This document shows positions 6,895 through 9,098 of a stretch of DNA of 49,775 nt, one piece after another. A model generated the notes under the pieces. It made no database searches and had not been told where the DNA came from. It worked only from the letters and a program-made list of their open reading frames with translations. The translations under genes were made by a program, and so were the position numbers. Position 1 is the stretch's first letter; every line of letters begins with the position of its first letter. The DNA comes from an uncultured Chloroflexota bacterium (GTDB lineage: Bacteria > Chloroflexota > Chloroflexia > Thermomicrobiales > UBA6265). The stretch covers positions 1 through 49,775 of the forward strand of contig CALMZR010000406.1 in NCBI GenBank assembly GCA_937870845.1, written 5' to 3'.

Positions 6895-7781
6895 TCATTC
6901 CGCTACGAAACTCCGCAGCAGGTCGCCATCGAACCAGCCTCCGCCGACGGGGACGGCAAACCCGCTGACTTCGATCTTCTCGATGCGCTCGTCGTTTCCA
7001 GAGACGCGCGCGAAGAGCGTGCTCGGCCGTCCGATTTCGGCGCCCTGCTCGATGCGGATCTCCTCCCCCCAGGGGATCAACCCATGACGCGTTAGATGCA
7101 GCGCCAGCGGCCCGGCGGCAGAGCCGGTGGCCGCATCTTCCGGGACGCCATCAGCGGGAGCGAACATGCGCGTCTTCCACGCCGATCCCTGCCCAGCAGA
7201 CACGTTGAATCCGATGATGCGCGCTCCGATTTCCCGAGCGAGCGTCGCCAGGGCGCCAAGATCCGGTTGCAGCGAGGCGACGTCGCCCGGATGGTCGAGG
7301 ACGACGTAGACATGGGGAATACCGTTGTCGTACGTCGTGATCGGGAGGAGCGAAGCATCCACCCGGAGCGCACTCAGCAACTGGTCCGCATGGCGATAGG
7401 GCTCGGATGTCGGCAACGGCTGCTCCATCGTGCCCCTGGCGGCAGGCCCACGAGGCGACTCGACGCGCACGGGATGGGGCCGCGGCCGCTCTCGAGCACG
7501 ACGCGATCCTTGCCAAGAGATTCCGCGACGACCGTCGCCGTGCCCAGCGTCGGGTGGCCGGCGAACGGGATCTCGTTCTCGGGCGTGAAGATACGCATCC
7601 GGGCATTCCCGCCGTCGCGTGCGGGGTACCGAAACACCGTCTCCGCGAAGCCGCTCTCCTTGGCCAGGGGTTGCACCATCGCCTCCGGGATGGCGGCGCC
7701 ATCCTGAAAGACGGCGAGTTGGTTGCACGCCAGCGGACGGTTCGTAAAGACATCGACGATCAGATAGTCCCAGCGGACCAC
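6895..7781 (-). pseudogene. PhzF-family isomerase gene with a one-base frameshift
   Basis: Two overlapping frames together make one complete PhzF-like protein of about 295 residues. The first frame, from GTG 7781, gives VDVFTNRPLACNQLAVF, the catalytic-Glu segment ESGFAETVF (E47) and ENEIPFAGHPTLGTA. It loses the family pattern at about 7470. The second frame resumes at VRVESPRGPAARGTMEQPLP and ends with DAATGSAAGPLALHL and the usual C-terminus. Adding one G to the CCCGTGCG stretch at 7466-7473 restores a single frame. It is either a young pseudogene or a base-calling error. Family members are epimerase-fold isomerases, including phenazine PhzF. AGGAGA lies 8 nt before the GTG, and only 15 bp separate it from the DAHP synthase stop, so the two form an operon. 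Confidence 0.85.
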
Positions 7782-7796: not shown

Positions 7797-8840
7797 TCAG
7801 TGCAAGACCACGGCGCGCTCGCGGGCCAGTTCATCGCGTTCCGATCCGGCCAGCAGCCCGGCGTGCAGCATCCTGCCCGTCTGGATGATGGTCGCCAGCT
7901 CGTCCACGGTGATCGTCTGCGGGCCGTCGCAGAGAGCGCTGTCGGGGTCGGGGTGCGCTTCGATGATCAGGCCGTCGGCGCCGGCGGCGAGACCGGCGAG
8001 GGCCATGCGGCCGACGAGGGTGCGGCGTCCCGTGCCGTGGCTGGGATCGACGATGACCGGCAGGTGGGACAGCTCCTTGACCAGCGGCACGGCGTTCAGG
8101 TCGAGGGTGAAGCGGGTGGCGGAGTCGAAGCTTCGAATGCCGCGCTCGCAGAGGACGACGTTCGGGTTGCCCTGGGCCAGGATGTACTCGGCGCTCATCA
8201 GCCACTCCTCGATGGTGGCGGCGAACCCGCGCTTGAGGAGGACCGGCGTGTTCGATTGGCCGGCGCGGCGGAGAAGGGGAAAGTTGGCCATGTTGCGGGA
8301 GCCGATCTGGATCATGTCGGCGTAGCGGGCGACGAGTTCGACGTGATCCGGCTCCATGGCTTCGGTGACGATGGGCATGCCAGTCATTTCGCGCGCTTCG
8401 GCGAGGTAACGCAACCCCTCTTCGCCAAGCCCCTGGAATGCGTAGGGGGAGGTGCGGGGCTTGAACGCGCCGCCGCGCAGGACGTCGGCGCCGGCGGCTT
8501 TGGCCGCCTGCGCCGCGGCGAGGAGCGCCTCGCGGCTTTCGATGACGCACGGCCCGCCCATGACCACCGGGCGGCCGCCGCCAACGCGCACGCCGCCGAC
8601 CATGACCACGCTCGGGGCGTTGGGGCGTCCCTCGCGGCTGGCGAGCATGTATGGGCGGTGTTTCTCCAGGACGGCGGAGACGCCGGGGAGCCCGTTCACG
8701 GAGACCTCGCCGACGATGCCGACGACCGTGCCGCCATGACCGTCGTCGAAGGTGCGGCTTTCGCAGCCGGCCCCGGCGGCGGCGGCGAGGATGGCGTTGA
8801 CGGTCGATACCGGCGCGTCGGCGGTCAACGTAACGATCAT
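7797..8840 (-). CDS. aroF: 3-deoxy-7-phosphoheptulonate (DAHP) synthase
   Basis: The enzyme joins phosphoenolpyruvate and erythrose 4-phosphate in the first step of the shikimate pathway. The 347-residue protein has an N-terminal ferredoxin-like (ACT-like) regulatory domain (about 1-70, MIVTLTADAPVSTVNAIL) and a type I-beta/KDSA barrel: GGPCVIES with the metal-binding cysteine, RGGAFKPRTSPYAFQG, MQIGSRNM, VLLKRGFA, LCERGIR and VDPSHGTGRR. This is the T. maritima-type layout, in which the N-domain gives feedback inhibition by aromatic amino acids. The start at 8840 is set by GAGGAGGGA about 8 nt upstream. The gene follows an aromatic leader peptide and terminator (8875-9063) and precedes phzF-like and selB. 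Expression is therefore probably controlled by attenuation. Confidence 0.96.
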   Translation of the reverse strand: MIVTLTADAPVSTVNAILAAAAGAGCESRTFDDGHGGTVVGIVGEVSVNGLPGVSAVLEKHRPYMLASREGRPNAPSVVMVGGVRVGGGRPVVMGGPCVIESREALLAAAQAAKAAGADVLRGGAFKPRTSPYAFQGLGEEGLRYLAEAREMTGMPIVTEAMEPDHVELVARYADMIQIGSRNMANFPLLRRAGQSNTPVLLKRGFAATIEEWLMSAEYILAQGNPNVVLCERGIRSFDSATRFTLDLNAVPLVKELSHLPVIVDPSHGTGRRTLVGRMALAGLAAGADGLIIEAHPDPDSALCDGPQTITVDELATIIQTGRMLHAGLLAGSERDELARERAVVLH

Positions 8841-8874: not shown

Positions 8875-8898
8875 AAAAAACCGAGGCGTTTGCCTCGG
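8875..8898 (-). terminator. intrinsic terminator before aroF (attenuator)
   Basis: On the minus strand, CCGAGGC-AAAC-GCCTCGG (8898-8881) forms a perfect 7-bp hairpin, followed at once by TTTTTT (8880-8875). It lies between the leader peptide stop (8932) and the aroF start (8840), so it can only act on transcripts heading into aroF. Confidence 0.85.
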
Positions 8899-8973
8899 CC
8901 CCCGGCGCTGCGTTCTGGACGATTGGGACGGTTAGCGGATCATCGCCTCTCGTCCCGCCAGCAGCGCCGGGGG
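8899..8973 (-). promoter_or_regulatory. 13-bp stem abutting the attenuator terminator
   Basis: CCCCCGGCGCTGC (minus strand, 8973-8961, codons for Pro-Pro-Ala-Leu of the leader peptide) is perfectly complementary to GCAGCGCCGGGGG (8911-8899). The second arm touches the terminator's first base. Inside the loop, GGGACG (8956-8951) pairs with CGTCCC (8930-8925), and GAGGCG (8949-8944) could pair with CGCCTC of the terminator arm (8888-8883). A ribosome stalled on the aromatic codons just upstream would cover the first arm. Which fold permits read-through I cannot decide by eye. Confidence 0.6.
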
Positions 8974-9063
8974 AACGTAGCCAAAAAAGACGTAGCCGTA
9001 CCAGCGAGCCGCCGGCTCGTGGATGCGGATGGTCTCGGATGGCGCCCCGTCGCTGGTGTGCAT
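8932..9063 (-). CDS. aromatic leader peptide of the aroF attenuator
   Basis: This is a 43-codon frame, ATG to TAA, ending 91 nt before the aroF start. Residues 21-29 are W-Y-G-Y-V-F-F-G-Y: one Trp, three Tyr and two Phe in nine positions, against no aromatic residue elsewhere in the peptide. That is the hallmark of a transcription-attenuation leader whose ribosome stalls when charged aromatic tRNAs run low. The stem arm 8973-8961 begins 4 nt after the last Tyr codon, the right place to be masked by a stalled ribosome. There is no SD sequence. A TTGACA-N17-TACCGT promoter puts the transcript start at or within about 2 nt of the ATG, so it may be read as a leaderless message. The peptide itself probably has no other job. 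Confidence 0.75.
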   Translation of the reverse strand: MHTSDGAPSETIRIHEPAARWYGYVFFGYVPPALLAGREAMIR

Positions 9064-9069
9064 GGCGGC

Positions 9070-9098
9070 ACGGTAGCGGGGCGCCCGGCATCTGTCAA
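9070..9098 (-). promoter_or_regulatory. promoter of the leader-aroF operon
   Basis: The -35 box is TTGACA (9098-9093), with a 17-bp spacer and the -10 box TACCGT (9075-9070), read on the minus strand. The expected start point is around 9063, the first base of the leader peptide ATG. It overlaps the region driving the divergent gene at 9164. Confidence 0.65.

Follow-up and report, generated by a model that had tools for sequence, protein, structure and literature searches.

A putative leader-peptide attenuator of aroF in an uncultured Chloroflexota bacterium, predicted from sequence to be a phylum-wide variant of an already known attenuator type

Attenuation by leader peptides is textbook knowledge, and a short frame rich in aromatic codons in front of a DAHP synthase gene, the entry to aromatic amino acid synthesis, immediately suggests such a device; the question raised by the locus described here is which part of the RNA would act as the switch. 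The initial annotation of this stretch of DNA (49,775 nucleotides, hereinafter the window) noted on the minus strand a 43-codon frame with WYGYVFFGY at residues 21-29, a 13-bp stem, a 7-bp terminator hairpin with TTTTTT, and aroF. All these elements are present and are arranged as follows:

9070-9098, minus strand: predicted promoter, -35 TTGACA (9098-9093), 17-nt spacer, -10 TACCGT (9075-9070)
8932-9063, minus strand: putative leaderless ORF for a 43-aa leader peptide, MHTSDGAPSETIRIHEPAARWYGYVFFGYVPPALLAGREAMIR, ATG at 9063, stop codon TAA at 8934-8932; start and translation are predictions
8977-9003, minus strand: putative regulatory codons WYGYVFFGY (Trp, Tyr, Phe), residues 21-29
8961-8973, minus strand: arm 1 of stem P1, CCCCCGGCGCUGC, coding for P-P-A-L-(L), with covarying pairs
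8899-8911, minus strand: arm 2 of P1, GCAGCGCCGGGGG
8925-8956, minus strand: inner hairpin P2 (8956-8951/8930-8925, GGGACG/CGUCCC), which encloses the stop codon and is found in most homologues
8875-8898, minus strand: intrinsic terminator CCGAGGC-AAAC-GCCUCGG (8898-8881) with UUUUUU (8880-8875), stem covarying
7797-8840, minus strand: aroF, DAHP synthase type I-beta (Bacillus subtilis type), ATG at 8840, above the cut-offs of NF006421 and TIGR01361

All 13 pairs of P1 (8973-8961/8911-8899) are perfect, and its arm 2 runs directly into the terminator, with a gap of 0 nt and 0 bases shared. Arm 1 starts 3 nt past the last Tyr codon (8979-8977, with GTT between), not 4 nt as originally given. 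A purine-rich ribosome-binding site lies between the terminator and aroF, and the genome encodes at least one further DAHP synthase in addition to the leader-bearing copy. The fold of the leader has a z-score of -3.9, a value that none of 200 shuffled sequences attained. At the gathering score, Rfam recognized only tRNAs in the window and nothing in 13 homologous loci. Right after aroF comes a PhzF-like gene (6895-7781, minus strand) that is broken in two: the overlapping frames 7374-7781 and 6895-7728 match different halves of Pfam PF02567, which is a frameshift or an assembly error.

The -10 hexamer ends 6 nt ahead of the leader ATG, and because of this spacing the leader message is predicted to be leaderless, with a start site placed by promoter geometry. 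The same arrangement, TTGAC(A/T)-17/18-TANNNT-6 to 10 nt-ATG, is found in 39 of the 43 homologous leaders, compared to 0.4% in the shuffled control.

Among the relatives that carry the leader-bearing (first) aroF copy and for which the upstream region was available, nearly all have the promoter, the ORF, the aromatic run, the P-P-A-x-L-x-G motif, the stem and the terminator; the relatives were examined specifically for loss of the aromatic cluster or the terminator with aroF kept, and both were found to be retained. The aromatic runs, 4-8 residues within 9, occupy an equivalent position in nearly all homologues of the order, and the unit at aroF spans five families. In an alignment of 31 leaders, 95.8% of the cells are standard pairs and 50 two-sided changes are observed compared to 17 in shuffles, and the pairing falls to 35-61% when the partner strand is slid by 1-3 columns; the helix scores of 860 shuffled leaders all stayed below the median of the real ones. 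The U-run is present in most relatives, and the terminator stem covaries in the order as well as in the phylum. The unit was not found in front of the second DAHP synthase copies or the sister-class copies examined. One genome, G063, has a different aromatic leader, GYYFAYYFYFYFFGYYALPGRS, with a long GGAGAGGGGACCTTCC hairpin before aroF (L061, about 485-690), which does not match the covariance model described below and is perhaps a parallel invention. Conserved codons, stem and terminator thus support the original proposal of a ribosome-mediated aromatic attenuator in front of the DAHP synthase gene, including the idea that a single leader, here with WYGYVFFGY and elsewhere with comparable runs, carries Trp, Tyr and Phe codons.

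Which element would switch is less straightforward. A classical 2:3 antiterminator was not found in the window or in about 25 homologues that were folded with arm 1 masked to several depths, in agreement with the earlier remark that such a structure is not obvious and that the switching fold may be unusual; in the same foldings, the probability of the terminator remains high whether arm 1 is masked or free. In contrast to shuffled leaders, among which 27% have a helix end even within a wider window of -6 to +4 nt, an unrestricted search placed the end of the best helix between -3 and +3 nt from the terminator in 39 of the 43 homologues. In other members, P1 overlaps the 5' arm of the terminator by 1-7 nt, and the stem takes 2-7 nt of this arm in Thermomicrobium-like aroF leaders and in several leaders of asd, tyrS and pheS. 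The terminator base then has a probability near zero if arm 1 is free and mostly 0.7-0.97 if arm 1 is covered; for overlaps of at least 3 nt, the medians are 0.02 and 0.80, respectively. A few of the listed overlaps stem from a G-U extension of the terminator, and those show no switch. Furthermore, the stop codon lies within P1 in 85 of the 86 leaders, in some lineages within arm 1, so that a ribosome completing the ORF would end inside the stem. Given that its base adjoins the terminator, that the overlap excludes the terminator in relatives and that the stop codon lies within it, the most likely antiterminator is P1 itself.

The position of the aromatic codons was compared with the 13-nt reach of the Escherichia coli ribosome footprint, which was taken as the threshold. 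By this measure, 297 of the 460 aromatic codons precede arm 1 by 13 nt or more, so that a ribosome stalled on them would leave it free. In the window, stalls at W, Y, Y, F and F, respectively, fall 30, 27, 21, 15 and 12 nt from arm 1, leaving it essentially free, whereas deep coverage of arm 1 would require a stall at the last Tyr. The initial annotation had the stalled ribosome covering arm 1; these distances, together with the exclusion of the terminator by the stem in relatives, point the other way.

Putting these observations together, we consider it probable that the leader controls aroF by ribosome-mediated transcription attenuation, with charged Trp, Tyr and Phe tRNAs as the signal and P1 as the antiterminator. 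Transcription would start on the leader ATG or no more than a few bases away from it, giving a leaderless mRNA on which ribosomes would load. When aromatic aminoacyl-tRNAs are scarce, a ribosome would stall within the aromatic run and leave arm 1 free, such that the long P2+P1 hairpin could zip up on emerging from the RNA polymerase; with the GC-rich base of P1 set against the 5' arm of the terminator (or, in some relatives, overlapping it), the terminator would stay incomplete and aroF would be transcribed. When aromatic amino acids are abundant, the ribosome would pass arm 1 and reach the stop codon inside P1, holding P1 open while the terminator forms and transcription ends. In the window, where P1 abuts the terminator, the blocking action is a prediction: no base is shared, and at equilibrium the folding allows P1 and the terminator to coexist (0.96 with arm 1 free, 0.85 with it covered), so blocking would have to be steric or kinetic, at the RNA polymerase. 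Several observations count against P1 as the antiterminator: antitermination is not expected from a stall at the last Tyr, which would hide the base of P1; in the leader of the window, a ribosome that has reached the stop codon does not by itself cover either arm; 2-4 nt separate P1 from the core terminator in many members of the phylum; and some leaders (pheS L122, tyrS L147) have few aromatic codons.

The main competing scheme retains the classical sense: the stalled ribosome would mask arm 1, P1 would be a 1:2 protector or a pause hairpin, and the released arm 2 together with a part of the terminator would form the antiterminator. Such pairing is conceivable since CCGGGG of arm 2 can pair with CCUCGG of the terminator 3' arm (6 bp, including one G-U pair), the counterparts in other families being CGGAGG and CCUCUG; moreover, in nearly all homologues arm 1 begins 3-9 nt past the final aromatic codon, and a stall there would cover its start. 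However, the masking of arm 1 does not reduce the terminator in most homologues (with exceptions such as L004 and L011), and the pairing of arm 2 with the terminator is missing in Thermomicrobium-like and L028/L029-like leaders and, where present, is weaker than the terminator and forms after it. Leaders of the Ktedonobacteria type have their stop codon in arm 1, which would accordingly be masked in both states, and in the overlapping members P1 antagonises the terminator. We therefore regard the classical scheme as unlikely. Three further pairings were considered and rejected: extension of P1 into the terminator 5' arm via codons upstream of arm 1 amounts to isolated pairings of 2-4 bp in a few leaders; pairing of the purine-rich arm 2 with the U-tract would reinforce termination under starvation, which is the wrong direction; and pairing of arm 2 with the terminator 3' arm is not general and is kinetically unfavourable.

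The leader shares with the trp, pheA and pheST attenuators of E. coli the starved leader codons, the intrinsic terminator and the decisive role that ribosome position would have. In those attenuators, the antiterminator occupies a large part of the terminator 5' arm, a 1:2 hairpin exists alongside it, the mRNA has a ribosome-binding site, and each responds to one amino acid; the pairing characteristic of the four-segment E. coli trp type (a 2:3 pairing that includes the terminator 5' arm, with the 1:2 hairpin apart) was found neither in the window nor in the folded homologues. A closer parallel is the 'fast attenuator' of ilvBNC in Corynebacterium glutamicum, in which mutations support a competition of the neighbouring antiterminator and terminator for three boundary bases (GCC) (PMC11857589). 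As is predicted for the Chloroflexota leaders, it has a leaderless leader peptide, control codons near the antiterminator and adjacent hairpins but belongs to a different phylum, operon and set of amino acids, has an H1 antiantiterminator, and overlaps by 3 nt, compared to a range from a 7-nt overlap to a gap of a few nucleotides in Chloroflexota (PMC11857589). Because the window shares 0 boundary nucleotides, we describe its leader as one that would work like the ilvBNC type rather than filing it as a member. An aromatic leader peptide in front of a DAHP synthase gene is already known from C. glutamicum: aroR, which precedes aroF, contains Phe-Tyr-Phe codons, and ribosome stalling raises transcription (Neshat 2014 in PMC11802643; also PMC4046766). 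It differs in that Phe limitation is the reported signal, that the accounts drawn on here describe no Trp run, and that the organism belongs to Actinobacteria (PMC11802643, PMC4046766). The trp and leu attenuators of actinobacteria, identified by comparative genomics, contain triple complementary repeats for the antiterminator and terminator; short leader ORFs and GC-rich terminators are common to both groups, and this survey does not mention aroF (PMC1262725). A search of the open-access literature turned up no description of this attenuator in Chloroflexota.

How far does this architecture extend beyond the order? A covariance model built on the stem and the terminator matched 48 of the 61 genomes of the order and 115 of the 400 genomes sampled across the phylum Chloroflexota, most of the phylum matches being located before aroF. 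Of 80 named aroF loci taken from a broad range of phyla, only five match on the sense strand, namely four MAGs of Thermomicrobiales or Chloroflexota and Dictyobacter arantiisoli. In 51 diverse members of the phylum, 91.6% of the positions are paired, with 172 two-sided changes compared to 49 in shuffles, figures that lean towards the model because the alignment was fitted to it. The unit also precedes other genes, whose names were checked against NCBIfam or Pfam with the exception of L123:

L141: class I-alpha DAHP synthase
L135, L149: chorismate mutase, aroH
L159: prephenate dehydrogenase, tyrA
L147, L153: tyrS, with a Tyr-rich leader in L153
L122, L125: pheS
L123 (genome G008), L124 (genome G005): pyruvate phosphate dikinase

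The pyruvate phosphate dikinase leaders are aromatic (e.g., APYAYAFYYFYAYQAMLEV) and have the same hairpin-terminator unit. The pheS leader L122 (G047) and the tyrS leader L147 (G184) keep the stem and terminator, but close to the stem they have only a single Phe or a single Tyr; they are perhaps degenerate or differently tuned. For two R2 matches before class I-alpha DAHP synthase genes, L255 in G000 and L254 in G020, no leader frame is convincing, and chance is the probable explanation. With a second model, we detected sites before asd, with leaders containing IITIIDGMTITPAG, and additional aspartokinase sites, with leaders containing TTTTITRPPA; altogether, Thr/Ile-rich leaders precede asd at L245-L249, L251, L258 and L259, and aspartokinase at L126, L252 and L253. 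Weaker sites precede the glutamate synthase gene gltB (L250, L256, L257), where the leaders share the conserved ending NPRTT(R/H)P. A search with the terminator-core pattern recovered the already known sites and nothing further. Because Thr/Ile versions precede asd and aspartokinase, the architecture is not bound to aromatic residues, the control codons matching the regulated pathway.

These findings lead us to propose, tentatively, an architecture common to Chloroflexota in which a long hairpin that abuts the terminator, and shares at most a little sequence with it, would block its completion at the RNA polymerase without sequestration; the sensed amino acid would be swapped by changing the leader codons (aromatic, Tyr, Thr/Ile and possibly others at gltB), and the switch would reach the supply of PEP, through pyruvate phosphate dikinase, as well as DAHP synthase. 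What is new is a phylum-wide family with its own architecture, runs of Trp, Tyr and Phe codons in a single leader and a graded overlap, together with the Thr/Ile variants and the reach of the family to PEP supply and to aminoacyl-tRNA synthetases. A leader before pyruvate phosphate dikinase would link PEP supply to aromatic demand, which predicts joint control of DAHP synthase and the PEP-making enzyme in some lineages. The family would represent a conserved, unlisted RNA switch at the entry to aromatic amino acid synthesis in a little-studied phylum, and its roughly 100 natural variants, in which the overlap of antiterminator and terminator ranges from 7 bases to none, make it testable whether an antiterminator must take bases of the terminator or whether abutting suffices.

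The same comparisons bear on the remaining explanations. The leader could be constitutive, setting a fixed basal level or aiding transcription-translation coupling without amino acid sensing, and indeed some members have only three aromatic codons. Nevertheless, the codons fit the pathway, being aromatic before aroF, class I-alpha DAHP synthase, aroH and tyrA, Tyr-rich before tyrS at L153 and Thr/Ile before asd and aspartokinase, and the aromatic run is retained while the neighbouring residues drift, so this possibility appears quite doubtful. Still less plausible is arrest by the nascent peptide in the manner of TnaC, whereby PPA after the aromatic run would stall the ribosome (Pro-Pro) and the aromatic residues would exert their effect inside the exit tunnel instead of serving as starved codons. 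In favour of it, the motif P-P-A-x-L-x-G is conserved, and the top covarying pair includes the third position of the first Pro codon (C-G in 11 cases, U-A in 10 and G-C in 8), so that the stem and the Pro codon are maintained together; yet Pro is substituted in places (RPA, SPA, APA, SGG) with the stem retained, the Thr/Ile leaders combine the same stem with a different peptide, and the kinds of residue track the pathway. Finally, short frames and terminators are common and this frame has just 43 codons, but a chance pairing of an aromatic-rich frame with the unrelated terminator of an upstream transcript is refuted, for practical purposes, by conservation and covariation over more than 100 genomes and by the dedicated promoter.

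In alignment A3, the terminator core (C)AGAGG...CCUCU(G) with the tail TTTTTTGTT hardly changes from one member of the phylum to another, whereas the stem next to it covaries freely; this near-invariance may be partly a product of how the matches were found. Outside Chloroflexota, two aroF loci of Firmicutes, L178 and L196 (Desulforamulus putei and a Sporomusaceae MAG), have short aromatic ORFs upstream (MSFYYFACWLY and one containing SGFWFSSFGQGYFFSAGYF, respectively) that are possibly other attenuators.
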